From: Bacilli bacterium
GTDB taxonomy: Bacteria > Bacillota_I > Bacilli_A > RF39 > UBA660
DNA length: 28,004 nucleotides
Direction: 5' to 3'
Assembly: GCA_918219625.1 (NCBI GenBank)
Contig: CAKJXT010000109.1
Coordinates: 1 to 28,004, forward strand
Under the pieces are notes generated by a model. It made no database searches, was not told the origin of the DNA, and worked only from the letters and a program-made list of their open reading frames with translations. Of this stretch, positions 13,862 to 26,432 are shown in pieces; position 1 is the stretch's first letter, and each line of letters starts with the position of its first letter. The position numbers and the translations under genes are program-made.

Positions 13862-14680
13862 TTATTTTTTGGGCATTATAATTGCTAAAGGCTCATCTTG
13901 GTTTTTACCAGAATACACTTGTGCTCTTTCCAACATCGTAGGAGTATATAACATTATTGAATTAGGCATTCGATTTCTTATAAATGTTCCCACCGTTGAC
14001 TCGCTAGAAGCTATAACTTTGGATCTTTGTATTATCTGCTCTTGATCCCATCCAAAAAGTTTGTAAAACCTTCCACCACGCTCAACTATTCTATTAAAGA
14101 CTGTTTCATCAATTGGTAATGGTTCTATTATTACTCCTTTATACCCTATAATATCATATAGTTCTGGAAATCTTTCACTTAGTAAGCAAAATTTCATTTT
14201 TTTTGGAACGTATTTTTTGAAATTTTCTATATTCTTTTTTAAATCTGATATTTTATTAATTGTTTTTTCCGGTTGTTCTAATGATAAATCAAAAAATATT
14301 GCTTCTGGGTTCAGACATTTAAAACCCATAGTTTTTGTTTTATTGCAAAACTCTTCTAAATTTTTCAACCCCTTTTTTGTTGTATTACCAACATCATCAG
14401 TTCTAAAGCCATCTGAACCTTCTGCTTTTATGTATGAGGGGCAAAAAAGTGAATAAAATTGTATTGGTTTGTCACTCATAAGAATATTACATATTTTTTG
14501 AGTAACTTTCTTATTTCTCCATCCTTCTATTTCTATTTCGTGCAAGTACCTAAACCAATCAAGTATTTTAATATTAAAATTCGTTAATTCTGCAATATAT
14601 TTCAAATCATCATATCTTATTTTTGATATTCTTTCTCCTTTTAAATAACTATTTAATTTACTGTTTAAATTATTTATCAT
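13862..14680 (-). CDS. Protein of unknown function (272 aa), accessory operon
   Basis: I do not recognise this protein. It is soluble, with no signal or membrane segment. The N-terminal 75 residues are helical and basic. The segment KPIQFYSLFCPSYI (about 72-85), followed by GFRTDDVGNTTKKGLKNLEEF, reads like a nucleotide- or substrate-binding strand-loop-helix. AIFFDLSLEQPEKTI and FCLLSERFPELYDIIG suggest further alternating strands and helices. The C-terminal part (about 215-272) has conserved-looking SSESTVGTFIRNRMPNSIML and ERAQVYSGKNQDEPLAIIMP. A small alpha/beta enzyme is likely. It starts 2 nt after the CYTH gene stop, with GGAG inside that gene's last codons, so it is translated as part of the operon. 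A role on the adjacent tRNA-like RNA is inference. Confidence 0.8.
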   Translation of the reverse strand: MINNLNSKLNSYLKGERISKIRYDDLKYIAELTNFNIKILDWFRYLHEIEIEGWRNKKVTQKICNILMSDKPIQFYSLFCPSYIKAEGSDGFRTDDVGNTTKKGLKNLEEFCNKTKTMGFKCLNPEAIFFDLSLEQPEKTINKISDLKKNIENFKKYVPKKMKFCLLSERFPELYDIIGYKGVIIEPLPIDETVFNRIVERGGRFYKLFGWDQEQIIQRSKVIASSESTVGTFIRNRMPNSIMLYTPTMLERAQVYSGKNQDEPLAIIMPKK

Positions 14681-14682
14681 TT

Positions 14683-15315
14683 TTACTCCTTTACTTGTGG
14701 CATCGGTAAATCAAATGTTACATAATTATAACGTTCCACGCCCTGCTCTTTACACAACTCTGTATATTTATCATCCCAAGATAACCTATAAGCCTTATTA
14801 ATATCTAAACCCAATTCTTTTGTCCATTTTTCTACAATTTTCTGCGGATTATTTTCAACACTTTTATTTTCAATTTCCAGTGCTAAACCAAATGGATATT
14901 CATCTATTGCAATTTCTATTTCATCATTATATGCAATCGTTCTATACCTTTCATAACTTTCTACACATCTCATTTTTAAAACGTTATCTACTATAAACAT
15001 CAAATTATCATATTCGTTATATTCTATAGTTAATTCTACCTCTTCCTCTTTATTTACAGTTTCTTCTGTTGTTGAAGGTAATCTTCTTTTCCAACTTATT
15101 TTGCACTTCGAATCTTGTTGGTCATTTGTAATTCTAATCCTAAATCTTCCATCTATTTCTTTTTTATAAAAGCTCATTTTTTCAAAAGGATGATCGTATT
15201 GAATTGTTTTCTCATATTTTCTTGTTCCTATTGTTAATGATTTATTTTTTTTTAACTGTTCTAATATTTTTTCTTTTTCACATGTTGGATAATAAAATCG
15301 TACTTCATATTCCAT
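14683..15315 (-). CDS. CYTH-domain (triphosphate tunnel) protein
   Basis: 210-aa protein of the CYTH superfamily, whose members (class IV adenylate cyclase, thiamine triphosphatase, RNA triphosphatase, tripolyphosphatase) act on triphosphate groups inside an eight-stranded tunnel with divalent metals. Visible signature: E2-x-E4-x-R6 at the N-terminus (ExExK with Arg instead of Lys), R59-x-R61, K72 and K76-R77-R78, EEVELTIEY, ESYERYR, D138 and ALEIEN (E147, E149) near the end. No second domain such as CHAD is present. It lies 2 nt downstream of the RibA-like gene, with GGAG overlapping the upstream stop region. The substrate is unknown; nucleotide triphosphates or a 5'-triphosphate RNA are both possible. 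Confidence 0.88.
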   Translation of the reverse strand: MEYEVRFYYPTCEKEKILEQLKKNKSLTIGTRKYEKTIQYDHPFEKMSFYKKEIDGRFRIRITNDQQDSKCKISWKRRLPSTTEETVNKEEEVELTIEYNEYDNLMFIVDNVLKMRCVESYERYRTIAYNDEIEIAIDEYPFGLALEIENKSVENNPQKIVEKWTKELGLDINKAYRLSWDDKYTELCKEQGVERYNYVTFDLPMPQVKE

Positions 15316-15317
15316 AA

Positions 15318-16853
15318 TTATTCTCCTTTTTTTAATAAATTATATATACATTTTTCTTCTGATATTGCTGACTCTATATTTGCAAATCTTAAATTATAAT
15401 TTGTGAAGTTTTCATCTTCATATTCTTGATTAGATACTGCATCATTTAATACCATTCTTTTTGAATTATTTAATATATTATCCAAAAATTCTTTTATTTT
15501 TTCTTTTGGACCATATACATCCATTATTCTACAATCAATATTTGGAAGTTTTTTTATATAAATATTAATCCCTGGAAGTTGATTTTCAGAAATGATGGTG
15601 ATCATCTCAACCCTTTTCACATAATTAAAATCGCTGTTTTCAAAATAAGATCGTAATTTTGAAAGACTAATCTCATTTTGTATAATTTGACTTTTATCTT
15701 CATTAAAAAATCTTTGCTCTACATGAACTTGTCCTGTTAAAAATATTGATTTATTATATACAGTATCTAAAACTTGACTAGAACGAATTCTTAATGTACT
15801 TTTGTCTACACTACTTTCAAAATAATATAATTTTTCTAATGACATTCTATCAAATACATTAGGTCCATACATTTTATAAATTGCATTAAAAATACTACTA
15901 TTTACTTTACACGAAAAATTATTTTGTATTTTGATTCTTTTTTCGTCAAATACATATTTTTTTTCTACCCCACATATTATTTCATCATATGTCTCTAAAA
16001 ACTTATTCTTATACTTGCTCTTCAAATTAAAATCTTTGTCATTTTTTATTTTTTCTATTATTTTTACTATAGTTGATAATGCTCTCGTATTATACTTTCT
16101 ATTTTCAATTAATGTGAATATTTTCTCCATTATCGATTCATCAAATAAATGTGTTTCATTCAATATTTTTACCAGATATTCTGAAAGATTATCTTCTGAA
16201 ATATTATAGTTTTTATATTCTTCCATGCCCATCGCGTTTAATCCATTATCTTTAAATGCATTAATTTTTTTTTCAGAATTAGATAAAATTACAAATTTGC
16301 TATTATTTAATTTAAAATCCTTCAATATATTAATTAATATTTCATAGTTTCTACAATCCTCAAAATTTTGTTTACCTAATAATATTTTTTGTGCATCATC
16401 TCTATTTTGTATTCCAATATATTTTCCTTTATCATTTCTACCAGATACCTGCAATTCTAATTCACTTAACTTATAGTGTAATCCCCATCCTTGTGCTTCC
16501 TGCGGCAAATGTATATAAATACCATTGTTTTCTGATATTAAATTAATTGTCTCAATTCTTTGTTTTTCACAATCACAATGTGTATCACCGTACATTCCTA
16601 ATAAACATTCACTTTGTACTCTAAAAAAAATAGCTTCGTTTTCAAAAGTAGTTTTAATTTCATTATAGTAATCAATATTTTTTGTTTCTTTCAATTTTTC
16701 AAAGTCATTATGCTTAAATATTATCAGAATATTTTCATTTGTAAGACCATATTTTTTCATTTCTTGTTCATTTGCTTTGTAGCACGCAGAAATAACTGAG
16801 CCATTAAATAATGAATTATCCTTTTGAAAGTAGAATGAATAGTTTTTTTTCAT
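15318..16853 (-). CDS. Diverged GTP cyclohydrolase II-like protein with long C-terminal extension
   Basis: 511-aa first gene of the accessory operon. Residues about 75-215 align with GTP cyclohydrolase II: RVQSEC83LLG, then GDTHC93DC95 gives the three zinc cysteines; HLPQEAQGWGLHYKL replaces the usual RQEGRGIGL-type loop (Arg to Gln); FEDCRNYEILINIL keeps the Asp166-x-Arg168 pair matching the catalytic D-x-R-[DN]-[YF]; FVILSNSEKKINAF matches LLTNNPKK. The Tyr that precedes ELQ in canonical enzymes is Leu here. No DHBP synthase domain is present. Residues about 230-511 match nothing I recognise. The frame is open to 17018, but ATG at 16853 after AGAGGTGATTCT is right. No riboflavin genes are adjacent, so a specialised GTP-derived or RNA-linked reaction is more likely than riboflavin synthesis (inference). 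Confidence 0.82.
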   Translation of the reverse strand: MKKNYSFYFQKDNSLFNGSVISACYKANEQEMKKYGLTNENILIIFKHNDFEKLKETKNIDYYNEIKTTFENEAIFFRVQSECLLGMYGDTHCDCEKQRIETINLISENNGIYIHLPQEAQGWGLHYKLSELELQVSGRNDKGKYIGIQNRDDAQKILLGKQNFEDCRNYEILINILKDFKLNNSKFVILSNSEKKINAFKDNGLNAMGMEEYKNYNISEDNLSEYLVKILNETHLFDESIMEKIFTLIENRKYNTRALSTIVKIIEKIKNDKDFNLKSKYKNKFLETYDEIICGVEKKYVFDEKRIKIQNNFSCKVNSSIFNAIYKMYGPNVFDRMSLEKLYYFESSVDKSTLRIRSSQVLDTVYNKSIFLTGQVHVEQRFFNEDKSQIIQNEISLSKLRSYFENSDFNYVKRVEMITIISENQLPGINIYIKKLPNIDCRIMDVYGPKEKIKEFLDNILNNSKRMVLNDAVSNQEYEDENFTNYNLRFANIESAISEEKCIYNLLKKGE

Positions 16854-16881
16854 AGAATCACCTCTTATATATATCACATGT

Positions 16882-16910
16882 ATTATATCAACATTAAAAT
16901 GTAAAGTAAA
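16882..16910 (-). promoter_or_regulatory. Promoter of the accessory operon
   Basis: TTTACT (16910-16905), 17-nt spacer, TATAAT (16887-16882) with TG one base upstream, on the - strand. The spacer contains the inverted repeat ACATT-AA-AATGT (16891-16902), a possible operator. The -35 box is only 8 bp from that of the divergent RNA promoter. Confidence 0.7.
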
Positions 16911-16918
16911 TAAATGTA

Positions 16919-16947
16919 TTGCATTATTAACTAAAATAATGTATAAT
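16919..16947 (+). promoter_or_regulatory. Promoter of the tRNA-like RNA
   Basis: TTGCAT (16919-16924), 17-nt spacer, TATAAT (16942-16947). The first base of the RNA (G16954) is exactly 7 nt after the -10. The architecture is the same as the tRNA-Ile promoter at 2268-2296, including an identical -35 hexamer. Confidence 0.8.
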
Positions 16948-16953
16948 GTTCTT

Positions 16954-17017
16954 GGGGTCGTAGTTATATTTAAAACATTTTTATAAAGAAGATAGTAAAA
17001 CCTATCCGACTCCACCA
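16954..17017 (+). ncRNA. 64-nt tRNA-like RNA with encoded CCA and G3.U70
   Basis: The 5' GGGGTCG (16954-16960) pairs with CGACTCC (17007-17013), then A (17014) and CCA (17015-17017): a 7-bp acceptor-like stem with discriminator A. Immediately 5' of its 3' strand, GATAG (16991-16995) pairs with CTATC (17002-17006) around a 6-nt loop TAAAAC, in the place of a T arm. The remaining 30 nt can form a weak D-like arm (GTT/AAC, 16963-16976) plus a small A/U stem, or one hairpin TTATA/TATAA (16964-16968 with 16982-16986). There is no canonical TTCRA T-loop, no GG in the D loop and no usable anticodon arm with U33. The third pair is G.U, which with A73 is the alanine identity set. Its own promoter and terminator flank it precisely, so it does not look like a decayed tRNA. 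It also resembles the two ends of a tmRNA without the middle. Confidence 0.75.
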
Positions 17018-17032
17018 TATATTGTTACAACT

Positions 17033-17054
17033 AATATAAAATTTTATATTTTTT
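17033..17054 (+). terminator. Terminator of the tRNA-like RNA
   Basis: AATATAA (17033-17039), loop AATT, TTATATT (17044-17050), then T to 17054. The stem is all A/U, hence weak alone, but it lies 15 nt after the CCA end in the expected place. Confidence 0.55.
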
Positions 17055-17067
17055 ATCATAACATAAA

Positions 17068-17091
17068 CAAAAAACCTAGGAAAACCTAGGT
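17068..17091 (-). terminator. Terminator of tRNA-Arg
   Basis: ACCTAGG (17091-17085), loop TTTT, CCTAGGT (17080-17074), then a T run on the - strand. It faces the terminator of the tRNA-like RNA. Confidence 0.88.
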
Positions 17092-17102
17092 ATTTTTCTA
17101 TA

Positions 17103-17179
<77 letters not shown>

Positions 17180-17203
17180 AGTCTGTTCCAAAAGAACAAA
17201 CTA

Positions 17204-17232
17204 ATTATACAATAAAATATATATTTATTCAA
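17204..17232 (-). promoter_or_regulatory. Promoter of tRNA-Arg
   Basis: TTGAAT (17232-17227), 17-nt spacer, TATAAT (17209-17204) on the - strand, about 18-25 nt before the tRNA. The -35 lies inside the last codons of gerM. Confidence 0.75.
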
Positions 17233-18187
17233 GACTTTTTAAGACACTTTTGTAAATTTCTTCATTATTTACATTAAAAATAACCTCTTTTACATCATAA
17301 TTATCATGAATAGATAAACAAATAGTATAAATTACCTCTTCTAATATGTCATGAGTATCTAAATCACTATATAAATACTCATTAAAATTAAGATTCAAAA
17401 CATCCATGCTCTTCTCAACACTAATCAATTTAACATTAGAATTTAAAAAACTCATTAAATTAGTGTTATATACATTAGAGCTTCCTAATTCTTCAATAAC
17501 AATCTTAATCTTTTCCCTATCATCATTCATATACTTAGTAACAGGAATATAATAATACTCACTATTATTTTTACCAACAAAATAAGTAGTAACACTACTA
17601 ATATTCTTACTACTTGTAACATCATACTCCTTATTAATACCAAAAGATCTATCAAGGGTACTAGGTAAATTAATCAAACTCTTAGGGAGTTTATTCAAAA
17701 TATTTCCTTCAACATAAATAATTACTCCATCAATGCCATCAATGCTAGTTAAAGTATAAACTATAGAAGAAATCATCTTTTCTTCTAAAGAAACATCTAT
17801 ATCAAAAATATCCTTAGAAAAATCAACCTTAACAATACCATTCTCAATACCAATAGATAAAATCTTAGTATCGCTAGGAATAATAGGTTTAAATCCATTT
17901 GGAATTAAATCTTCACGAGAACTATCAATAATTAAAGACTCTAATAATTCCTTTACCTTAGACTCTATATCATCAGAACCTACCATAATACTAGTTAAAC
18001 TAACCATGTTATGACTATCAAGTAAAAATATATCATTAGTTATAACAGAACTATCAACATAAATAACTTCTTTACGAATACTTTCTAATTTATTGACACT
18101 ATCAGTAGGAAATAAATATATTAAAAACAAAACAAAAAGAGCTGAAACACAAATTATTATTTTTTTTAAATACATTCTTTTAAGCAC
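17225..18187 (-). CDS. gerM: Germination/sporulation protein GerM-like
   Basis: 320-aa membrane-anchored sporulation protein. One hydrophobic segment (about residues 8-27, IIICVSALFVLFLIYLF) is followed by two GMN domains (about 70-170 and 200-315). Each has the pattern of a turn-rich strand, a helix with a KELLESLI or VIEELG core, and a final strand such as GIVKVDFSKDIFDI and MDVLNLNFNEYLYS. In B. subtilis, GerM is made under SigE and acts in engulfment and coat/cortex assembly. The GTG at 18187 after AGAGGTGAAGTTT is preferred over the open frame to 18223. It follows gerE; the pairing of gerM and gerE near each other is also seen in B. subtilis. Confidence 0.88.
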   Translation of the reverse strand: MLKRMYLKKIIICVSALFVLFLIYLFPTDSVNKLESIRKEVIYVDSSVITNDIFLLDSHNMVSLTSIMVGSDDIESKVKELLESLIIDSSREDLIPNGFKPIIPSDTKILSIGIENGIVKVDFSKDIFDIDVSLEEKMISSIVYTLTSIDGIDGVIIYVEGNILNKLPKSLINLPSTLDRSFGINKEYDVTSSKNISSVTTYFVGKNNSEYYYIPVTKYMNDDREKIKIVIEELGSSNVYNTNLMSFLNSNVKLISVEKSMDVLNLNFNEYLYSDLDTHDILEEVIYTICLSIHDNYDVKEVIFNVNNEEIYKSVLKSLE

Positions 18188-18211
18188 AAACTTCACCTCT
18201 AATAAAGAATA

Positions 18212-18237
18212 TGAAAAAAGCACATAAAAATGTACTT
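18212..18237 (-). terminator. Terminator of gerE
   Basis: AAGTACAT (18237-18230), loop TTTT, ATGTGCTT (18225-18218) with one U.G pair, then T on the - strand, directly after the gerE stop codon. Confidence 0.75.
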
Positions 18238-18444
18238 TTACAAAGAAATTTCTCCAATTTTTAAAAGCTCAACAACAGCGGCTGCACGGCCTTTAACTCC
18301 TAACTTCTGCATTACATTAGATATATGGTTTCTGACAGTTTTTTCACTAATATCTAACTTAGAAGCAATTTCAGAAGTTATCTTATTTTGAATCAATAAA
18401 TCAAAAACCTCTTTTTCCCTCTTAGTAAGAATACTTTTAGACAT
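18238..18444 (-). CDS. gerE: Spore regulator GerE (LuxR-type HTH)
   Basis: About 68-72 aa consisting of a single LuxR/GerE helix-turn-helix, the late mother-cell regulator of coat genes under SigK control. The block LTKREKEVFDLLIQNK, then TSEIASKLDISEKTVRNHIS and MQKLGVKGRAAAVVELLKIGE, is nearly identical to Bacillus GerE over its whole length, which makes the assignment firm. The frame opens with GTG at 18456, but GAGGG just upstream of two ATGs (18447 and 18444) makes one of those the likelier start. It is followed by its own terminator and then gerM. Confidence 0.95.
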   Translation of the reverse strand: MSKSILTKREKEVFDLLIQNKITSEIASKLDISEKTVRNHISNVMQKLGVKGRAAAVVELLKIGEISL

Positions 18445-18492
18445 CATTTCCCTCACTTCCTGTTGGGTGGCTTATACTCACAATATTATATG

Positions 18493-18521
18493 TAAAAACC
18501 AAAAAACAGTGAGGGTTTTTT
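18493..18521 (-). terminator. Possible terminator after spoIIIAH
   Basis: On the - strand AAAAACC and GGTTTTT, about 13 nt apart, can pair just after the spoIIIAH stop codon. The loop is large and the T tail is the stem arm itself, so this is a weak call. Confidence 0.35.
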
Positions 18522-19025
18522 CTAAACTTGAAACTTTACAGAAATATACTTATCCTTATCATAATTTTCTTGAATAGATCTAATTATATTATTAGCTAAA
18601 ATATTATCATGTTTATCACTTTCAATAACAACCCTAATTTGATCACCATCAATTTTAACAAAAGATTTTAAAGAATAAGCATCCATTATTTGCTTTTCTA
18701 ACTTTTCTTCTTCAGTTCTAACATTATTAATATTCTTAATTTTCTCATAAGCATTATTCTTTTCCTCAGGAGTCGCATCTGCGTTAACTAAAATTGCCTG
18801 CAACTCTTCTATTTCAGAACTAACCTTTTCTTCTGCCTCAATTCTAAGAGCAGTTAAAATACTACTTTCACTAACAACAACAGTTTCCTCATTAGAAACA
18901 GGCTCTATATTATACTCACCATTATTAGAAACAAGTAACTCATTAGGCATAGTTATATAATAAACACTAAGTACTAAAATTAAACTAAATAAAGTTAAAA
19001 ACCATAAATTTCTTTTATTTATCAT
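18522..19025 (-). CDS. spoIIIAH: Stage III sporulation protein AH-like
   Basis: 167-aa single-pass membrane protein. The N-terminal NKRNLWFLTLFSLILVLSVYYI (about residues 3-24) is the transmembrane segment. An acidic linker follows, then a helical region (EEAEEK...EELQAILVNADATPEEKNNAYEKI) and the C-terminal YscJ/FliF-like ring-forming domain (IMDAYSLKSFVKIDGDQIRVVIES...). SpoIIIAH in the mother-cell membrane binds SpoIIQ in the forespore to form the A-Q channel. ATG at 19025 follows AAGGAGGATAAT; the open frame extends to 19043. It stands alone here: no spoIIIAA-AG genes are upstream, which is unusual because it normally ends that operon. Confidence 0.88.
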   Translation of the reverse strand: MINKRNLWFLTLFSLILVLSVYYITMPNELLVSNNGEYNIEPVSNEETVVVSESSILTALRIEAEEKVSSEIEELQAILVNADATPEEKNNAYEKIKNINNVRTEEEKLEKQIMDAYSLKSFVKIDGDQIRVVIESDKHDNILANNIIRSIQENYDKDKYISVKFQV

Positions 19026-19075
19026 ATTATCCTCCTTGTACATCTATTAGATTATATTAGGAAGATAATAAAATA

Positions 19076-19414
19076 TTACTTTTTCATTTCATCATACTGT
19101 CTATACATATTTTGAACACAATTTTCTAAAAGAAAATAATGATAAATATAAGGTATTAAAAAGCACATTAACATATACCCAATTATTACAGGTATTATAC
19201 TTTTAAATACAATACCAACTAAAAATGATAATAAATCCAATAATCCATATGTAACAGTAACAATTAAATGAATCATTCTTTCATGTTGAAAAAATCCAAT
19301 CTTAATTAAATGATCATTAATAAACTTATCATCCGCTTTAGCCTTATTCTCTTCAACATAATTTAAATAATTAACAATATACTTTGCCATACTCTTTCTT
19401 TCAATCTTTTCCAT
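19076..19414 (-). CDS. Small membrane protein of unknown function
   Basis: 112-aa protein with a charged helical N-terminus (about 1-45, rich in Lys and Glu), two closely spaced hydrophobic segments (about 48-69 LIVTVTYGLLDLLSFLVGIVF and 72-94 IIPVIIGYMLMCFLIPYIYHYF) and a short charged tail. No catalytic motif is visible. The start follows GGTGATGAT. It lies directly upstream of spoIIIAH with about a 50-nt gap, so it may be cotranscribed and expressed in sporulation, but this is inference. Confidence 0.75.
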   Translation of the reverse strand: MEKIERKSMAKYIVNYLNYVEENKAKADDKFINDHLIKIGFFQHERMIHLIVTVTYGLLDLLSFLVGIVFKSIIPVIIGYMLMCFLIPYIYHYFLLENCVQNMYRQYDEMKK

Positions 19415-19447
19415 ATCATCACCATATTAATAATAACACTAATTTAA

Positions 19448-19474
19448 ATAAAAAAAAAGATGTATAAACATCTT
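19448..19474 (-). terminator. Terminator of secG
   Basis: AAGATGT (19474-19468), loop TTAT, ACATCTT (19463-19457), then nine T on the - strand. Confidence 0.85.
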
Positions 19475-19682
19475 ATAAACCATAAAAAGCACAAATAATC
19501 ATAAATGCTATTCCTAATCCTAAAGTTAAACGAGAAATAAATAATTCTCCTCCTCTTTCCTTACGATTAGCAAATAAATCATCATTACCACCAGATATAA
19601 TTGATGCACTTTCAGCCTTACCACTTTGAAGTAAAACTAAAGCAACTAACAAAATTGATACAACGATTAATAAAACTTTCAT
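19473..19682 (-). CDS. secG: Preprotein translocase subunit SecG
   Basis: 69-aa accessory subunit of the SecYEG channel. Two membrane segments are visible, residues about 2-18 (VLLIVVSILLVALVLLQ) and 48-66 (ISRLTLGLGIAFMIICAFY), with the family signature LLQSGKAESASIISGG between them. The start follows GAGGTGGATTAA. It is the last gene of the run that begins with sufC, with a terminator immediately behind it. Confidence 0.94.
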   Translation of the reverse strand: MKVLLIVVSILLVALVLLQSGKAESASIISGGNDDLFANRKERGGELFISRLTLGLGIAFMIICAFYGL

Positions 19683-19735
19683 TTAATCCACCTCACTGTA
19701 ATAATTTATCATATTTATTAAAAATATGCAAGTAT

Positions 19736-20005
19736 TTATTTAATAAATAAAGCTTTAACTTGTTCTTCTATAATCTTATAAATTCCATCATCATCTACAG
19801 ATATAACAGAATACTCATTACCATTTTTTATTAATTCTGAAATAAGAATACGATACTTACCATCTATTTCAACATAATCAGTATAAGCAATATATACTTT
19901 ACCCGAATTTTCATCAAACATTTCATATAAAATATCACATTTGATTTCTTTCCCATCCATACCTTTTAATACAAATCTCAAATCTTTAACATCTATTTTT
20001 TTCAT
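19736..20005 (-). CDS. DUF1292-like small protein
   Basis: 89-aa acidic beta-rich protein resembling the DUF1292/YrzB family: LRFVLKGMDGKEIKCDILYEMFDENSGKVYIAYTD, with the characteristic short strands and the [YV]-[IV]-x-[YF]-T-D motif near residue 40. The function of the family is unknown. The gene begins one base after the stop of the 233-aa gene and has AAGGAAGTAAT upstream. A paralogue (20702-20983) lies on the other side of that gene, a sandwich arrangement that is unusual. Confidence 0.78.
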   Translation of the reverse strand: MKKIDVKDLRFVLKGMDGKEIKCDILYEMFDENSGKVYIAYTDYVEIDGKYRILISELIKNGNEYSVISVDDDGIYKIIEEQVKALFIK

Positions 20006-20006
20006 A

Positions 20007-20708
20007 TTACTTCCTTATTATAGATGAATTAATTTTTCCTAAAAAATCATTTGTTTTTTTGAAAAGAAATCCACCAAACTTCTTAGTCATATTAAATTTA
20101 ACACCTTTTTGAGAATTACATACATGACCAAAAACATTTTTAACAACATCACATGAAAATCCAACCGCAACACCAACTAAGCCAGCTGCAGAACTAATTC
20201 CAATATTTGTTACAATCAAAGCAGGCGCAACAACAAATTTACTTACACTCCAAATAGAACTAAAGCAACTTCTAACTGGTTTACTTTCCCCATATTCAGA
20301 TTCTCTTCTATGTATATTAATTGTAGTGGCTGTTTTACGAATCTTTAAAATAATTTCTTTAGGAATAGAATATTTATTTTCAGAACTTTTATTTTCAATT
20401 ATTCTTTTTTCTATTTGATTAGCATGATCTTTCATTAATTGATTTAATAAATAAGAATAGTATTCATATTCGCTATCACATAATATTTCAGGATTATCTT
20501 TCTTATATTCTTCAGGCTTATCCGATATATATGTACTAGGAACATTTGTAAGCTCATTCTTACATTTAAAAAGCATCGTTTTTATTAGTCTAATTAATCT
20601 TCCTCTACAACGAGTTATTTCAGCTTGAGCCCCCGAATCCAAAGCTACTGCCAATTCATTTTTTATCTTCACACATTCATCTTTATAATAATCAATTGTT
20701 TTTACCAT
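20007..20708 (-). CDS. Hypothetical protein with helical domain and hydrophobic segment
   Basis: 233-aa protein that I do not recognise. Residues about 1-130 are charged and helical (YYKDECVKIKNELAVALDSGAQ..., a possible coiled coil; SEYEYYSYLLNQLMKDHANQIEKRI). A Gly/Ala/Val-rich hydrophobic stretch at about 153-187 (SVSKFVVAPALIVTNIGISS, then AAGLVGVAVGFSCDVV) could be a membrane or amphipathic insertion segment. The C-terminus is Lys/Phe-rich. The ATG overlaps the stop of the upstream DUF1292-like gene by 7 bases, so translation is coupled. It is embedded between two DUF1292-like genes and may work with them (inference). Confidence 0.7.
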   Translation of the reverse strand: MVKTIDYYKDECVKIKNELAVALDSGAQAEITRCRGRLIRLIKTMLFKCKNELTNVPSTYISDKPEEYKKDNPEILCDSEYEYYSYLLNQLMKDHANQIEKRIIENKSSENKYSIPKEIILKIRKTATTINIHRRESEYGESKPVRSCFSSIWSVSKFVVAPALIVTNIGISSAAGLVGVAVGFSCDVVKNVFGHVCNSQKGVKFNMTKKFGGFLFKKTNDFLGKINSSIIRK

Positions 20709-20983
20709 AATTCCTCCCTAGACATCGTTAATTGAACCAAATAATCTCTTATATTATCATCAACATCTTTAAGAATATAATCATCACCATCAAAAACTAT
20801 TTCATTCACATAACACTTAAATTTATCGCCATCTAAAAAATAATCAGTAAAGACAACATATAAAGAATCAGTATCATCATCATGATAAGAAGCTAATACA
20901 TCACATAAAACCTCTACTCCATCAGAATTAACTGTTTTAAAACTTATATTACTCAAATCTTCATCATATAAACTAACATTCAT
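20702..20983 (-). CDS. DUF1292-like small protein (second copy)
   Basis: 93-aa acidic protein with the same plan as the 89-aa protein at 19736-20005: ISFKTVNSDGVEVLCDVLAS, a variable turn, SLYVVFTDYFLDGD and a C-terminal helix. The central V-F-T-D-Y matches the paralogue's A-Y-T-D-Y. It begins 17 nt after sufS with GGTGGATTC upstream, so it sits in the suf operon. Function unknown. Confidence 0.7.
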   Translation of the reverse strand: MNVSLYDEDLSNISFKTVNSDGVEVLCDVLASYHDDDTDSLYVVFTDYFLDGDKFKCYVNEIVFDGDDYILKDVDDNIRDYLVQLTMSREELW

Positions 20984-21000
20984 GAATCCACCATAAATAT

Positions 21001-22194
21001 CTAAATAATTTCATTCTTAATATTAGGGTTATTTAAAGCCTCACATAACTTATCAATTTCTTCAAAAGTATTATAAAAATAAAAACTAATTCTACAAGTA
21101 TTCTTAACCTTTAACTCTTCTTTTAATATCTTCGCACAATGATTACCAGCTCTAACACAAATATTATACTTATTTAAATATATTGCTAAATCTTGAGAAA
21201 AAATATCTTTATAATTAAAAGTAATGATACCACTCTTACTATTTTTATTATAAATAATAATATTAGGATTTAAAGATAACTTAGATAAAGCATACTCTTT
21301 AAGCTTAGCCTCATGACTAGAAATCTTATCAAAGCCAACATCATTTAAATACTCTATAACTCTACCAAAAGCAATTACATCCGCAATATTAGGAGTACCT
21401 GCTTCTAATAAATGTGGAAGTTCCTTATAAACACGAACACCATCATCATCAAAAGAAGCATTCATACCACCACCATAAATAAGTGGACGTATATTATTTA
21501 ATAACTCCTTCTTACCATATAAAACACCAACACCAGTAGGTCCACACATTTTATGAGCAGAAAAAGCTAAAAAATCAATATCCATGTCATTAACATTAAT
21601 ACTCATATGAGGAACACCTTGAGCTCCATCAACGACAACTAAAATACCTTTAGAATGAGCATAATTAATTATCTCTTTAATAGGTCTAACATCACCTACT
21701 ACATTACTAATGTGCGCTATAGAAATAACTTTAGTCTTATCAGTAATACTTTCTTTAACACTCTCTAAAGTAACCTCATAATCATCATTAAGAGAAATAT
21801 ATTTAATATTTAAACCTAATTCATCTTTAAGTTCAAACCAAGGCAAAACATTAGAAGCATGTTCTGCTCTAGTAAGTAAAACCTCATCTCCAGAAGATAA
21901 CTTATCTCTAAAATAACCAAAAATAATCTTATTTAAAGCATCAGTACAACCACTTGTAAAAACAACCTCACTAGAATCAGAAGCACCAATTAAATCACAA
22001 ACTAATTCTCTAGTATGTTCATACATCATATCAACCTTTAAGCTAATATCATAATCGCCTCTATGAGCATTCGCACTATAATTATTATAGTAATCACTAA
22101 GACTTTCTAATAAACACTTAGGCTTTAAAGTAGTCGCACCATTATCAAAATAAATAATATCTTGATTAAGCATCATGAAATCTTCTCTATTCAA
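21001..22194 (-). CDS. sufS: Cysteine desulfurase SufS
   Basis: About 397-aa class II PLP-dependent cysteine desulfurase that takes sulfur from cysteine for Fe-S cluster assembly. Visible are IYFDNGATTLKP at the start, NAHRGDYDIS, EVVFTSGCTDALN, the aspartate block VVVDGAQGVPH, the PLP lysine in FLAFSAHKMCGPTGVGVLYG and the sulfur-carrying Cys in VRAGNHCAK. The frame begins with ATG at 22209, but that ATG-GAG-GTG is the ribosome binding site (GGAGGTGA) that overlaps the sufD stop; TTG at 22194 with 5-nt spacing is the likely start. No SufU or SufE follows it in this operon. Confidence 0.94.
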   Translation of the reverse strand: MNREDFMMLNQDIIYFDNGATTLKPKCLLESLSDYYNNYSANAHRGDYDISLKVDMMYEHTRELVCDLIGASDSSEVVFTSGCTDALNKIIFGYFRDKLSSGDEVLLTRAEHASNVLPWFELKDELGLNIKYISLNDDYEVTLESVKESITDKTKVISIAHISNVVGDVRPIKEIINYAHSKGILVVVDGAQGVPHMSINVNDMDIDFLAFSAHKMCGPTGVGVLYGKKELLNNIRPLIYGGGMNASFDDDGVRVYKELPHLLEAGTPNIADVIAFGRVIEYLNDVGFDKISSHEAKLKEYALSKLSLNPNIIIYNKNSKSGIITFNYKDIFSQDLAIYLNKYNICVRAGNHCAKILKEELKVKNTCRISFYFYNTFEEIDKLCEALNNPNIKNEII

Positions 22195-22199
22195 AAAAA

Positions 22200-22988
22200 T
22201 CACCTCCAATAATTATCAATCACTGAGTTAAAATAATCACAAATAACAGATGACATATTACTAGTTAAAAATCCAATTAAAAGTAATCTTGTCGCATCAC
22301 TTCTATTTATTCCTCTAGACTGTAAATAAAACAAATCATCTTCACTAAAGGAACCAACCCAAGCACTATGAGACGCAACAACATCATCACAATCAATATA
22401 TAAATTAGGTTTAATAATACATTCTTTATCATTTAAATTTATAATTCTATTATCTTGAGAAGCAACACAACCTGTAATATTTTTAGGAATAAAAGATGAA
22501 ACATTAAATAAAACACTTCCATCTTTAATACTAACACCATTAGTATTTATACTACTATTAGTATTACTTGAATTATGATGAATTAAGAAATCATAATTCT
22601 CAGGTTTAATAGAAATAGTCTTTAAATTATAATTAATTGAAGCACCACTACCATTTAAATTACAAATAAAATGTTCCTTAATACTATCAATATTATTAAA
22701 CTTAAAAACATTTACTCTACTATTACCATCTATAGAATAAGTAGTTCTAATCTTACAACTATCACCGCTAATAATCTCATTAACATTTAAATCAATGCCA
22801 CTTAAAACATTAATACATACCTCTAATTTACAATCAGAAAATCTATACTCTAAATTTAAATCACAAGACTTAACAACATCAATATTTAAAACCTTAATAC
22901 CAAAACTCTCATTATCAACTAAATCATAAGTTATAGAATCAAATTCAGATTCAACTATATTTAAATCATCCAATACTATCTTATTCAT
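22200..22988 (-). CDS. sufD: Short SufD/SufB-type Fe-S scaffold protein
   Basis: About 262-aa member of the SufBD family. Only the beta-helix core and C-terminal region are recognisable: the repeat of short strands (NVFKFNNIDSIKEHFICNLN..., GSVLFNVSSFIPKNITG), CIIKPNLYIDCDDVVASHSA with the SufD-type His, and GSFSEDDLFYLQSRGINRSDATRLLLIGFL. Typical SufD and SufB are about 430-470 aa, so the N-terminal helical domain is missing. Start at ATG 22988 overlapping the end of sufC by 8 bases (an ATG at 22997 is also possible but too near AAGG). It binds SufC and probably forms the scaffold. Confidence 0.85.
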   Translation of the reverse strand: MNKIVLDDLNIVESEFDSITYDLVDNESFGIKVLNIDVVKSCDLNLEYRFSDCKLEVCINVLSGIDLNVNEIISGDSCKIRTTYSIDGNSRVNVFKFNNIDSIKEHFICNLNGSGASINYNLKTISIKPENYDFLIHHNSSNTNSSINTNGVSIKDGSVLFNVSSFIPKNITGCVASQDNRIINLNDKECIIKPNLYIDCDDVVASHSAWVGSFSEDDLFYLQSRGINRSDATRLLLIGFLTSNMSSVICDYFNSVIDNYWR

Positions 22989-23745
22989 TAGAATCATTTT
23001 CCTTTGTACTAATTCCTAATTTATCTAAATCATATCCATTCTTTTCAATTAAACTAACTAAAGAAGAATCTCCACTTTTAACAATATGTCCATCCATCAT
23101 AACATGAACAAAATCAGGCTTAATATAATCAAGTAATCTTTGATAATGAGTAATTAATAAAATACTAGGTTTAAACTGTTCATAATACTTCATAACAGAT
23201 TCTCCAACAATTCTTAAACTATCAACATCTAAACCAGAATCAATCTCATCCAAAAGAACAGTATTAGGCTCTAACATATACATCTGTAAAATTTCATTTT
23301 TCTTTCTTTCTCCACCAGAAAAGCCTTGATTAACACCTCTATGAATCATTTCCCTATTCATAGATAAATCATCAACAGTCTTATTCATTTTTTTAACAAA
23401 ATCATAAAACTTAAAATCACCTTTATTATGTAAAGCAGCTCTTAAGAAATCAGCGTTACTAACACCTTCAATCTCCATAGGCATCTGCATTCCTAAAAAT
23501 ATACCTAATCTAGCTCTTTCATCAACTTCCATATTATTTATCTCTTTATCATCAAAATAAATATGTCCAGACATTATTTTATAATTAGGATCACCCATAA
23601 TAACCTTAGATAAAGTACTCTTACCAGTACCATTTGGACCCATAATCGCATGTATTTCACCACTATGAATCTCTAAGTTAAATTTATTCAAAATTTGTTT
23701 GTCATCAACACTAACACACAAATCTACAATCTTTAATGTATGCAT
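22981..23745 (-). CDS. sufC: Fe-S assembly ATPase SufC
   Basis: 254-aa soluble ABC-type ATPase of the SUF scaffold. Walker A GPNGTGKSTLSK (near residue 37), the SufC-specific MEIEGVSNADFLRAAL, the ABC signature FSGGERKKNEILQM, Walker B with VLLDEIDSGLDVDSL, and the His switch LLITHYQRLLDYI are all present. GGTGGAGATGATTTT precedes the ATG. It is the first gene of sufC-sufD-sufS and then the DUF1292/secG genes. Confidence 0.97.
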   Translation of the reverse strand: MHTLKIVDLCVSVDDKQILNKFNLEIHSGEIHAIMGPNGTGKSTLSKVIMGDPNYKIMSGHIYFDDKEINNMEVDERARLGIFLGMQMPMEIEGVSNADFLRAALHNKGDFKFYDFVKKMNKTVDDLSMNREMIHRGVNQGFSGGERKKNEILQMYMLEPNTVLLDEIDSGLDVDSLRIVGESVMKYYEQFKPSILLITHYQRLLDYIKPDFVHVMMDGHIVKSGDSSLVSLIEKNGYDLDKLGISTKENDSNE

Positions 23746-23835
23746 AAAATCATCTCCACCACTATATTATACAATAAAATATATTTTTTTAAAATTAAAT
23801 AGTTTAAAAAAAACAAGAATTCACATAATAAAATA

Positions 23836-23878
23836 GAATATTCGCAGATATTCACTAAAAGAGGTTAACCTCTTTTTT
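23836..23878 (+). terminator. Hairpin pair with terminator between sufC and the HIT gene
   Basis: GAATAT-TCGCAG-ATATTC (23836-23853), then AAAAGAGG-TTAA-CCTCTTTT (23857-23876) followed by further T on the + strand. Both lie before the HIT promoter, so on the + strand they would end a short upstream transcript. Confidence 0.5.
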
Positions 23879-23884
23879 AATTTT

Positions 23885-23893
23885 TGATATAAT
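23885..23893 (+). promoter_or_regulatory. Extended -10 promoter of the HIT gene
   Basis: TGATATAAT with TATAAT at 23888-23893. It lies 20 nt before the start codon; no clear -35 is visible. Confidence 0.5.
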
Positions 23894-23913
23894 TAATACA
23901 TGGAGATGATTAT

Positions 23914-24273
23914 ATGGATATTTTTTGTAAAATAATTAATGGTGAAATACCTTCATATAAATTATATGAAGATGAATTTGTTCTAGCATTCTTAGATATA
24001 AGTCCACAAGCAAATGGACACACACTAATAATACCTAAAAAACACTATCTAGATATTGATGATATTGATAATGAAACACTAAATCATATATCAGATACAG
24101 CTAGATATATTAAAAAATTATTAATAAACAAACTTAACTGTAATGGTGTAACATTCGTACAAAATAATGGAGAATGCCAAGAGGTAAAGCATTACCACCT
24201 ACACGCTATTCCACACTATAAAGAAAATCAAGAATTAGAAGAAGTATCAGAAATTTATGAAAAATTAAAATAG
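23914..24273 (+). CDS. HIT-family nucleotide hydrolase
   Basis: 119-aa histidine-triad protein that hydrolyses or transfers nucleoside monophosphates (AMP-lysine, AMP-NH2 and similar). It starts with IFCKIINGEIPSYKLYED, has LAFLDISPQANGHTLIIPKKHY, and the catalytic triad H93-x-H95-x-H97 in KHYHLHAIPHY. It is complete, though the N-terminal side of the triad is shortened compared with the usual Q-x-V-x-H-x-H-x-H. ATG at 23914 follows GGAGATGATTAT. It is monocistronic and divergent from sufC. Confidence 0.94.
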   Translation: MDIFCKIINGEIPSYKLYEDEFVLAFLDISPQANGHTLIIPKKHYLDIDDIDNETLNHISDTARYIKKLLINKLNCNGVTFVQNNGECQEVKHYHLHAIPHYKENQELEEVSEIYEKLK

Positions 24274-24290
24274 GGAATCCCTATTTTTTT
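24267..24290 (+). terminator. Terminator of the HIT gene
   Basis: AAAATAGGG (24267-24275), loop AAT, CCCTATTTT (24279-24287), then T. The stop codon is inside the stem. Confidence 0.85.
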
Positions 24291-24294
24291 TAAT

Positions 24295-24325
24295 AAAAAA
24301 AATTCAACCTAACTCTTAGGTTGAA
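24295..24325 (-). terminator. Terminator of the spoVA operon
   Basis: TTCAACCTAA (24325-24316), loop GAG, TTAGGTTGAA (24312-24303), then a T run on the - strand. It overlaps the spoVAE stop codon. Confidence 0.88.
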
Positions 24326-24659
24326 ATAAAAAGCTTAAAAACACAGAAAATATAATAGCCGAAGAAATACCAGAAGCAGTAAGATCAAATATTCCCATAA
24401 AAAGACCCATTATACCATAATTAAGTGTTGATGCCATCGCTCCATGAATAAGTAAATGCCCAAAACTAGTAATAGGAACACAAGCTCCACCACCAGCCCA
24501 TAATATAATCTTATCATAAATTCCAAATATATCTAAAAATGCACCAATAACAACAAATAAAGCCGTAATATGCCCAGGAGTAAGCTTAGTATTATCTAAA
24601 ATAATTTGACCAATTAAGCAAACTAATCCACAAAATAAGAAAGCATTAAAATATATCAC
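24309..24659 (-). CDS. spoVAE: Stage V sporulation protein AE
   Basis: 116-aa integral membrane subunit of the SpoVA channel, which moves Ca-dipicolinic acid into the forespore and out during germination. Several hydrophobic segments cover most of its length (FNAFLFCGLVCLIGQIIL, TALFVVIGAFLDIFGIYDKI, ASTLNYGIMGLFMGIFDL, SSAIIFSVFLSFLF) and the block AGGGACVPITSFGHLLIHGA is typical of SpoVAE/AEb. The start is GTG overlapping the spoVAD stop by one base (TAGTG). The operon here is the minimal C-D-E set common in Clostridia. Confidence 0.93.
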   Translation of the reverse strand: MIYFNAFLFCGLVCLIGQIILDNTKLTPGHITALFVVIGAFLDIFGIYDKIILWAGGGACVPITSFGHLLIHGAMASTLNYGIMGLFMGIFDLTASGISSAIIFSVFLSFLFQPKS

Positions 24660-25645
24660 TATATTACCTCCAAACTAATCGCATGCGCAATACTAGGAAT
24701 AGATAACTTTTGATTCACCATAGTAGGACTCATTAAAGCACCTGTAGCTACAAGTAAAACTCTATTTAATTCTCCTTTTTTCATCTTATTAAAAACATAA
24801 GAATAAGCAACTAAAGGAAGACATGCAGGACCGGATCCCCCAGCATACACAGGTTGTCTATCAATATCATAAATCATACTAGCGCAATCATCATAATTCT
24901 TAAGGTCAATATTATATTCAGTTCTCATATATTCTTGTAAAATCTTCTTACCATAAATTCCTAAATCACCAGATAAAATTAAATCATAATAACCAGCTTC
25001 ACGCTTAGTATTCATCAAATGCTTATAAATAGTATCCCCACAAGCAGCAGCCATAACGCCACCCATATTATAAACATCTTTTATACCCATATCTACAACT
25101 GTACCAATTGTACTACTATCAACCCGAACACCTTTCTTATCACGAGATAAATAGGCACTACAACCACCAGTAACAGTAAAAGTAGTATAACTCTTTTTAG
25201 GTCCGCCATATTCAACAGGATATCTAAACTGTTTTTCAGCAGAATTATTATGACTAGAAACAGAACAGATGACATTATCAACACACTTATGTTCAACCAT
25301 ATTAGAACCAATAATTAAACCTTCAACACTAGTCGCACAAGCATTATAAACACCTAAAAAAGGAATACCTAAACGACTAGCTGCATAATTAGAACTAGTT
25401 AACTGATTCATTAAATCACCAGAAATATGTAAATCAATTTGAAATCTAGTCATGCTTAATTTATCTAATAAAATATCAATAGACTCATCAATCAATTTAC
25501 TCTCTGCTTGCTCAAAAGTCCTTTCTCCAAAATAAAAATCACCATAACTCTTATCATATAACTTACTAAAAGGACCATTAGCCTCATATGGGCCAGTAAC
25601 AGTACTAACCATATTTAAATAAACATTATCATATCTATGTGTCAT
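24659..25645 (-). CDS. spoVAD: Stage V sporulation protein AD
   Basis: 328-aa thiolase-fold protein of the SpoVA complex that binds dipicolinic acid at the inner spore membrane. Recognisable blocks: TGPYEANGPF, YGDFYFGERTFEQAESKLI, LGVYNACATSVEGLIIG with the thiolase-like Cys, HNNSAEKQFRYPVEYGGPKK, CSAYLSRDKKGVRV and AGGSGPACLPLV. The length is close to the usual 330-340 aa. It starts one base after spoVAC with GGGGGTATAGT upstream and is followed by spoVAE with overlap. Confidence 0.95.
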   Translation of the reverse strand: MTHRYDNVYLNMVSTVTGPYEANGPFSKLYDKSYGDFYFGERTFEQAESKLIDESIDILLDKLSMTRFQIDLHISGDLMNQLTSSNYAASRLGIPFLGVYNACATSVEGLIIGSNMVEHKCVDNVICSVSSHNNSAEKQFRYPVEYGGPKKSYTTFTVTGGCSAYLSRDKKGVRVDSSTIGTVVDMGIKDVYNMGGVMAAACGDTIYKHLMNTKREAGYYDLILSGDLGIYGKKILQEYMRTEYNIDLKNYDDCASMIYDIDRQPVYAGGSGPACLPLVAYSYVFNKMKKGELNRVLLVATGALMSPTMVNQKLSIPSIAHAISLEVI

Positions 25646-25646
25646 A

Positions 25647-26087
25647 CTATACCCCCATTACCAATAATCTTAATAAACCAAAAATATATGCACTAACAAC
25701 ACCATATACAATAACACTTCCAGCAAGTTTAAATATATTAGAACCTAGTCCTAAAACTAATCCTTCTTTTCTATACTCTAAAGCAGCACTCTGCATAGCG
25801 TGAGCAAACCCAGTAATAGGAATAATTAAACCACACCTACAAAAATGAACAATTCTATCAAAAAACCCTAAACAAGTAAATAAACATCCTATAAAAATTA
25901 AAGTAACAATCATAAATACAGAAGCATCTTTAGTAGGAATATTTAAGTAATAAGAATAAAATTCCATCAAAACCTCACCTAAAACACCCATTAAGCCACC
26001 TATAACAAAAGCAATCAATCCATTATAAACTCTATTTTCTTTAGGAGTATACTTATCAACAATACTCTGATACTTTCTCTTTTCCAT
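25647..26087 (-). CDS. spoVAC: Stage V sporulation protein AC
   Basis: 146-aa membrane protein of the SpoVA channel, thought to form a mechanosensitive pore. After a basic N-terminus (MEKRKYQSIVDKYTPKENRVYN) come GLIAFVIGGLMGVLGEVLM, SVFMIVTLIFIGCLFTCLGFF, the family block GLIIPITGFAHAMQSAALEYRKEG and LAGSVIVYGVVSAYIFGLL. The frame is open to 26183, but ATG at 26087 after GGTGATTAT is the start. It is the first gene of the operon; a SigG-like promoter is just upstream. Confidence 0.94.
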   Translation of the reverse strand: MEKRKYQSIVDKYTPKENRVYNGLIAFVIGGLMGVLGEVLMEFYSYYLNIPTKDASVFMIVTLIFIGCLFTCLGFFDRIVHFCRCGLIIPITGFAHAMQSAALEYRKEGLVLGLGSNIFKLAGSVIVYGVVSAYIFGLLRLLVMGV

Positions 26088-26101
26088 ATAATCACCATTA
26101 A

Positions 26102-26130
26102 TATTTTGTAAAAAAAATTGAAATTTATAC
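26102..26130 (-). promoter_or_regulatory. SigG/SigF-like promoter of spoVA
   Basis: On the - strand GTATA (26130-26126), 17-nt spacer, CAAAATA (26108-26102) matches the forespore consensus GHATR-N17-CATNHTA except at one -10 position. The predicted leader would be very short (about 8 nt, starting near GGTGAT), which lowers confidence. spoVA is SigG-dependent in B. subtilis. Confidence 0.35.
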
Positions 26131-26232
26131 AATTTTAAAAAACATAAAAATAAATAAAACAAAAAATAAAAATCTGTATACAAAAATTAAAAATCTACAT
26201 TTTTTTTAAAACAAAATATCAAAAACACTCAT

Positions 26233-26261
26233 TTGAACTATATTTTTATATATGATAACAT
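26233..26261 (+). promoter_or_regulatory. Promoter of the structured RNA
   Basis: TTGAAC (26233-26238), 17-nt spacer, TAACAT (26256-26261) with TG one base upstream. The predicted start is G26268, exactly the first base of stem A of the RNA. Confidence 0.6.
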
Positions 26262-26267
26262 GTACAT

Positions 26268-26432
26268 GAAAGGAGAAAAATCATAATAATTCCCGTTAGA
26301 TTTGAGTACGTTTGCCTATAAACTTCTCCTTTCAAAAACTTTCTTCAAACATGAAATCGTTCATATAAAAGCCTCTTACTCACTATAAAGTACTCAATCT
26401 AAAAAAACAATAGAATATCTCTATTGTTTTTT
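26268..26432 (+). ncRNA. Candidate structured RNA (about 165 nt) with H-type pseudoknot
   Basis: Four pairings stand out. Stem A: GAAAGGAGAA (26268-26277) with TTCTCCTTTC (26324-26333), perfect over 10 bp. Stem B: TTAGATTTGAGTAC (26296-26309) with GTACTCAATCTAA (26390-26402), 13 bp with one bulged T. Order A-B-A'-B' makes a pseudoknot, or two alternative folds. Hairpin C: ATGAA-ATCG-TTCAT (26351-26364). Hairpin D is the terminator at 26406-26432. There is no protein frame. The promoter, predicted start and terminator define a + strand unit opposite to the sigF/spoVA genes. I cannot assign it to a known family; 6S, SRP, RNase P and tmRNA signatures are not visible. A sporulation-linked RNA such as CsfG is one idea to test. 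Confidence 0.6.
26399..26432. terminator. Bidirectional terminator between sigF and the structured RNA
   Basis: AACAATAGA (26406-26414), 5-nt loop, TCTATTGTT (26420-26428) with T runs on both strands. It serves sigF on the - strand and the RNA on the + strand. Confidence 0.88.

Follow-up and report, generated by a model that had tools for sequence, protein, structure and literature searches.

A tRNA-like RNA with an alanine-type acceptor end, linked to the gene of an unnamed protein family of predicted synthetase-like fold in uncultured bacteria

The window, by which we mean the whole stretch of 28,004 nucleotides analysed here (contig CAKJXT010000109.1 of a Bacilli bacterium), carries three genes that we call A, B and C, all of them open frames, and a small tRNA-like RNA, hereafter TLR, encoded on the opposite strand (Table 1). 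Between the TLR and a convergent tRNA-Arg lies a hairpin that could terminate transcription of both RNAs, and the region from 17225 to 27088 contains sporulation-type genes (Germane domain, SpoIIIAH, SpoVAC, SpoVAD and a SigF-like sigma factor), which suggests a spore-forming Firmicute host. ARAGORN and Rfam recognised three normal tRNAs only in the window and none at the TLR, where a lenient Rfam scan returned no tRNA match either; an ordinary tRNA, a tmRNA or another Rfam RNA was ruled out on these results as the identity of the element.

Table 1. Features of the TLR locus, with positions counted along the window
Feature	Position	Strand	Basis
Gene C, 272 aa, predicted class I synthetase-like fold	13862..14680	-	Model, fold searches
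Gene B, 210 aa, CYTH-like protein	14683..15315	-	Similarity to the CYTH protein of locus L010
Gene A, 510 aa, GTP-cyclohydrolase-II-like (~1-210) and triphosphate-tunnel CYTH-like (~300-487)	15318..16850	-	PF00925, model, fold searches
Putative weak -35, TTGCAT	16919..16924	+	17-nt spacer to TATAAT
Putative -10 of the TLR, TATAAT	16942..16947	+	Perfect hexamer, ends 7 nt before G1
tRNA-like RNA (TLR), 64 nt	16954..17017	+	Sequence; match to covariance model R1
TLR acceptor stem, 7 bp, GGGGUCG/CGACUCC	16954-16960/17007-17013	+	Sequence
TLR pair G3.U70	G3 16956, U70 17011	+	Sequence
TLR T-like arm	16991-17006	+	5-bp stem 16991-16995/17002-17006, 6-nt loop
TLR 3' end	A73 17014, CCA 17015-17017	+	Sequence
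Bidirectional terminator-like hairpin, near-palindromic	17074..17091	both	Between the TLR and the convergent tRNA-Arg
tRNA-Arg, convergent with the TLR	17103-17179	-	ARAGORN

The acceptor stem with its G3.U70 pair, the 5-bp arm with a 6-nt loop, A73 and CCA are all present as the original prediction had described them, which had further presented the element as a full transcription unit of 64 nt with its own promoter and terminator. Of the promoter, the -10 hexamer is perfect, the -35 hexamer agrees with TTGACA at 3 of 6 positions by eye, and a consensus promoter scan of 16800-17300, which found 4 sites against 3.3 expected, did not list the pair. A clear terminator does exist, the terminator scan finding 2 (both strands) against 0.1 expected, but it is the hairpin of Table 1, outside the range given by the prediction, and the hairpin immediately 3' of the CCA has A-U pairs only, so that 3' trimming is probably needed to yield the mature RNA, and a primary transcript of 64 nt is conjectural. 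Folded alone, the window TLR reaches -13.1 kcal/mol (z -2.18), with 7 of 200 shuffles equally good; this energy is modest evidence by itself, and it is the comparison of homologous sequences that we regard as decisive.

Using an alignment of C only, we scanned genomes and retrieved 12 loci, all in metagenome-assembled genomes (MAGs) labelled Bacilli, Bacillales, Clostridia, Clostridiales, Rickettsiales or bacterium. A structural scan found a TLR in every one of them, starting GGGGTYGTAGTTATA and ending CRACTCCACCA, and the descriptor also returned 4 chance rows (3 places) within these loci; homologous loci without the RNA were looked for, as the prediction had proposed, and none was found among these 12. 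Pairwise identity is 64-99% (median 79) among the 13 RNAs and 59-88% (median 67) among the C proteins of the window and 11 loci (the truncated one of L012 left out), values so high that the 12 loci do not form a fully independent set.

In the 12 sequences without the window, the TLR has an acceptor helix of 7 pairs, a D-like helix of 3, a middle helix of 4 and a T-like helix of 5, and these 19 pairs are formed in 100% of 227 cells, against at most 61.2% for control structures slid along the same alignment. Compensatory changes, on which the prediction had staked itself, are present: five pairs are altered on both sides, a number reached by 9 of 500 shuffles, and the covariation score of 0.207 is reached by none of 500, while further pair types are no more numerous than chance allows (83 of 500). 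RNAalifold, unaided, predicted 16 of the 19 pairs and omitted the D-like helix, which hardly varies. The covariance model R1, made of the same 12 sequences with the window left out, recovered the window TLR at 58.4 bits (E 7.3e-13), with the tRNA-Ile of the window second at 30 bits. By eye, three of the five pairs in the window's T-like stem have both bases changed relative to the commonest form and remain paired.

The acceptor end is the most uniform part of the RNA. All 13 TLRs have the 7-bp acceptor stem, position 73 and the CCA, and all keep G1-C72, G2-C71, G3.U70, G4-C69, U5-A68, G7-C66, A73 and CCA, pair 6-67 alone varying between C-G, U-A and U-G. The bacterial alanine identity set, as given in PMC9976931, consists of A73, G2-C71, G3.U70 and G4-C69 plus G20, and apart from G20 it is complete in 13/13 copies, in agreement with the alanine-type end that had been proposed. 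In six loci bases 1-10 are also constrained by the reading frame of C; the 3' strand is free of this constraint, and bases 1-10 are unchanged in the seven remaining copies.

The remainder of the molecule is reduced. Copies measure 64-80 nt, and most of them have a shrunken middle arm; G51-C63 is missing in all 13, A49-U65 is present in 10 (the window has G49-C65), and by eye the GG of the D-loop is missing in 11. The T-like loop starts with UG in 11 of 13, the canonical UUCAAAU occurring in L010 only, a locus whose TLR also has GG in its D-like loop. A 7-nt anticodon-type loop was seen by eye in two of the 12 copies from outside the window (L002 with C33, L010 with G33) and not in the window, and the elongator hallmark of such a loop with U33 was found in none of the TLRs, so the earlier view that the window RNA has neither a normal decoding loop nor a canonical T-loop stands. 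At the RF00005 cut-off of 29 bits only the L010 copy passes as a tRNA (45.5 bits) among the 12 other TLRs, and the window copy is unmatched; ARAGORN calls the former tRNA-Lys(UUU), though in our own reading it has G at 33. Judged by its sequence, the L010 TLR is still a recognisable tRNA, and the series that runs from it to the 64-nt window form suggests that the family descends from tRNA.

The TLR lies at the stop codon of C or at most 50 nt from it in 12/12 loci. It overlaps the stop codon in six (L001, L003, L005, L008, L010 and L012), follows it by 5 nt in L009, 8 nt in L004, 37 nt in L006 and L007 and 42 nt in L011, and lies 50 nt from it on the opposite strand in L002. The linkage to C is thereby strongly supported, as the prediction had it for the neighbouring enzymes, and the RNA and C almost certainly form a functional pair. 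In the overlapping loci U8-A9-G10 of the TLR is the stop codon of C, so the RNA 5' end lies inside the C coding sequence, and C ends in Gly-Ser or Gly-Leu as set by TLR base 6. Such an end occurs in 51 of 119 full-length C homologues and in 0 of 120 A proteins among the matches listed, and the overlap is thus probably common among metagenome copies. Excision of the TLR would remove the stop codon of C, and RNA processing may therefore be coupled to translation of C. The window TLR, the shortest of the 13 copies, is on the opposite strand to C with a possible promoter of its own, an arrangement known from this one locus only; the proposal that the RNA starts at position 1 and needs no RNase P suits this arrangement, but not the six loci in which the 5' end is inside C. 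Both displaced TLRs seem to have their own promoters, that of L002 being a TTGACA-17-TATAAT which, by eye, ends 17 nt upstream of the inverted TLR. As side observations, a 336-aa C homologue (P0101) has a C-terminal extension that resembles a translated TLR, by eye in the protein alignment, and a ROOL RNA (RF03087, 193.6 bits) lies at L006:6449-7022, about 1.2 kb downstream of the TLR.

At the level of genomes, all of the 11 genomes with C that were scanned (the L011 genome left out) contain a 15-base TLR motif exactly once, and in each of these R1 detects a single strong copy (73.9-99 bits), with other matches at or below 41.1 bits; two genomes with a divergent C, G165 and G450, have no strong TLR by R1. 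Among 299 genomes of the phylum of G008, searched with stricter filters that could miss weak matches, only G008 scores above 45 bits, and 46 others score 34-44.4 bits; of these, 10 loci were checked, and each has an ordinary Ala or Val tRNA at that place. Few relatives have C (2 of 143, 2 of 147 with one weak at E 1.7e-6, and 1 of 125 genomes, centres included), and A was found at E <1e-30 in G008 only among 338 genomes of that phylum. Against phage and plasmid records C had no match, and the C alignment, run against viral contigs, produced 8 pattern hits, none of them a relative; phage or plasmid cargo was rejected on this ground. The 15-base motif matches 63 viral-contig stretches, where R1 finds nothing above 35.2 bits, so that the short motif alone is no evidence. 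PADLOC had no match for A, B or C, and a defence system was rejected on this ground.

An hmmscan up to E 1 places C in no Pfam family, and it has no NCBIfam match; of its 166 homologues at E up to 0.001 in the protein collection very few are named among the 120 listed. Its structure model is confident (pLDDT 92.6). Foldseek returned the isonitrile synthases PIsnA/PvcA as best matches and cyclodipeptide synthases (CDPS) as well, a further fold search returned TyrRS, PvcA and CDPS, and the model agrees both with the class I synthetase-like Rossmann fold of the CDPS and with the DIT1_PvcA fold, so C is predicted to have the fold common to class I synthetases, isonitrile synthases and cyclodipeptide synthases. 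At the level of sequence, C has no match to the CDPS family PF16715; hhalign with PF05141 (DIT1_PvcA) gave probabilities of 0.3% and 0.1%, the PvcA profile holding only 5 sequences from a search with matches in 5 of 398 genomes; a CDPS profile had 0 matches in 348 genomes, where the controls were equally silent, which makes this search uninformative; and the five weak matches to solved structures are chance-like. A shared predicted fold does not show a reaction shared with CDPS or PvcA, and the PvcA-type enzymes at the head of the Foldseek list use free amino acids, which speaks against transfer from an RNA donor. Ser82 is conserved in 133 of 134 C rows, and Glu227 and Tyr245 in all 134, in an order that, from sequence alone, is plausible for the catalytic Ser, Tyr/Glu and Tyr of CDPS; both TLR-less relatives have G, Y and P at these positions.

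The N-terminal part of A has both the family profile (PF00925, GTP cyclohydrolase II, E 5e-13) and the fold of GTP cyclohydrolase II, and its C-terminal part has the CYTH / triphosphate-tunnel fold. Of the 176 homologues of A at E up to 0.001, the 120 listed are of similar length and very few of them are named. Residues C82, C92, C94, D165, R167 and K195, which we take to be the catalytic positions of GTP cyclohydrolase II, are invariant in 57 rows, and the motif PQEAQGWGL stands in place of the RQEGRGIGL type, so the substrate of A may differ. B of the window has no match of its own in Pfam (E 0.001) or NCBIfam and is 30% identical (tblastn E 4.5e-12) to a CYTH protein of L010 that passes PF01928; its orthologue in L001 matches TIGR00318 below the cut-off. 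Other loci have a GTP cyclohydrolase I, FolE2 or a Q_salvage protein in the cluster, GTP cyclohydrolases of three families occurring across the TLR clusters, and Q_salvage or SIS-domain proteins are near C in 8/12 loci. Gene D and other cluster genes vary between loci, D not being found in the window. In L001 the frame of A is broken into two, in L003 and in L009 it contains a single stop, and the L005 genome retains just the final 46 residues, also with a stop; these defects may be decay or MAG errors; with this fragment only in L005 and no A in G010, A is not essential to the TLR-C pair. Two further clusters, L022 and L023, combine FolE2, Q_salvage and a distant C-like protein and have no TLR; along with these, one cluster contains A, B and a partial SAM-synthetase-like protein, while the other contains an APH-family protein, a thymidylate-kinase-like protein and what is, by eye, a serine-recombinase-like gene.

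The reading that we favour, by a little more than even chances, is that the TLR is charged by alanyl-tRNA synthetase and serves as a dedicated alanine donor for C, and that C would in turn load this alanine on a small molecule derived from GTP; the notion of an alanyl-RNA made as donor for the enzymes, already put forward by the original prediction, is supported in this conditional form. Alanine as the amino acid is highly probable, its transfer by C is reasonably probable, and a GTP-derived acceptor is tentative. In the scheme that we infer, the TLR would be cut from the operon transcript in most loci and made from the opposite strand, perhaps from its own promoter, in the window, and the host alanyl-tRNA synthetase (AlaRS) is predicted to charge it. 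C would bind the acceptor stem and take the alanine, likely on Ser82 with Glu227 and Tyr245 assisting, and pass it onto an acceptor that A (or FolE/FolE2) and the triphosphate-tunnel proteins would make from GTP. The reduced elbow and middle arm may keep the TLR off EF-Tu and the ribosome, in which case the pathway need not compete with translation. It is possible, though somewhat less likely than not, that the whole is a self-contained module in which a private RNA carrier, a tRNA stripped of decoding and fused to the tail of its enzyme gene, brings alanine into a new class of GTP-derived metabolites.

The isonitrile synthases at the head of the Foldseek matches would also fit a TLR on which C remodels the alanine itself, with the product released later, the RNA then acting like a carrier protein and not as an acyl donor; the amino group might for example be changed as by an isonitrile synthase, with a sugar phosphate, a kind of compound that the Q_salvage and SIS-domain proteins near C could handle. 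We find this unlikely, since C has no sequence-level relation to PF05141 and isonitrile synthases use free amino acids. The window copy, taken for itself, could be a decaying remnant that is functionless at this locus, as it is the shortest, has a 6-nt T-like loop and a weak middle arm, is displaced from C and has no gene D found beside it; against this, the double changes in its T-like stem preserve pairing, the alanine set, CCA and perfect -10 are retained and A, B and C are open frames, and loss of function here appears quite improbable. A TLR that is the substrate of a 7-deazaguanine-like base modification, with an alanine signature inherited from a tRNA-Ala ancestor, would suit both the recognisable tRNA of L010 and the presence in the clusters of genes for GTP cyclohydrolase and Q_salvage proteins, but it is the acceptor end and CCA that are best kept in 13/13 copies while the loops vary, the general family scan of cluster genes noted no tRNA-guanine transglycosylase, and the TLR-less clusters retain FolE2 and Q_salvage, which leaves this role very improbable. 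Equally improbable is a toxin-like C that attacks alanyl-tRNA, with the TLR as decoy or antitoxin RNA, for which the patchy distribution and the tight linkage with an overlapping RNA would speak, but not the operon with metabolic-type enzymes, the single TLR copy per genome or the lack of matches in PADLOC and in phage or plasmid records.

As far as our searches show, the TLR is an undescribed RNA family paired with an unnamed enzyme family. No description of a TLR-enzyme system was found in the openly licensed literature; neither 'dedicated' nor 'tRNA-like' occurs in a 2026 review (PMC12945691), and a 2010 survey (PMC2922099) contains none of the words 'cyclohydrolase', 'CYTH' and 'tRNA-like'. 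Since 12 of the 13 TLRs match no Rfam family at cut-off and C matches none in Pfam or NCBIfam, the pair is invisible to those libraries, and the two together would offer a searchable RNA-enzyme signature for a pathway of uncultured bacteria. Enzymes that draw amino acids from tRNA compete with translation, and a co-encoded, non-decoding alanyl-RNA would solve this through a separate donor. If the donor reading is true, the TLR would correspond, in RNA, to a dedicated carrier protein, and would be a natural example of a tRNA that has abandoned translation; the forms that lead from L010 to the 64-nt window RNA would then serve as a natural series for a tRNA becoming a minimal acceptor RNA.

The tRNA-like domain of tmRNA lacks an anticodon arm and has an acceptor end of alanine type that contains G3.U70, and the TLR shares this acceptor end; ARAGORN found no tmRNA in the window and Rfam none at the TLR, and no tag reading frame was noted. 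Cyclodipeptide synthases (PMC7566563) move an amino acid from aminoacyl-tRNA to a serine and use the elongator tRNAs of the cell; C is like them in its predicted fold and may have an acyl-accepting serine with Glu and Tyr, and is unlike them in having no sequence match to the family and, presumably, an acceptor other than a second aminoacyl-tRNA. Alanine borne on RNA would go to a non-protein acceptor in both the TLR system as proposed and pacidamycin synthesis, where PacB, an alanyl-tRNA-dependent transferase, is Fem-like and uses ordinary alanyl-tRNA according to PMC4052509, whereas the TLR is not an ordinary alanyl-tRNA and C is not Fem-like. The same paper describes non-proteinogenic tRNA-Gly isoacceptors of S. 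aureus that serve peptidoglycan bridges and have lost GG at 18-19 and have weak T-stem pairs. They resemble what we propose in being reserved for non-ribosomal amino-acid transfer, in the GG loss and in the weak T-stem pairs, and by this resemblance the missing elbow and weak T-stem of the TLR would keep it from EF-Tu; they are, however, glycine isoacceptors that serve Fem transferases, whereas the TLR is alanine-type, is reduced to 64-80 nt and sits at the gene of its own enzyme, which has another fold. The tRNA-Sec gene, which PMC8124441 reports nested in selB with a proposed regulatory coupling, likewise overlaps the 3' part of the gene of its user protein and is a precedent for coupling between TLR processing and C translation, although there a whole tRNA-Sec is involved, and for translation, whereas the TLR overlaps by 10 nt and supplies the stop codon. 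Set against known aminoacyl-tRNA-dependent non-ribosomal chemistry, the new element would be a dedicated donor RNA, co-encoded with the enzyme that uses it.
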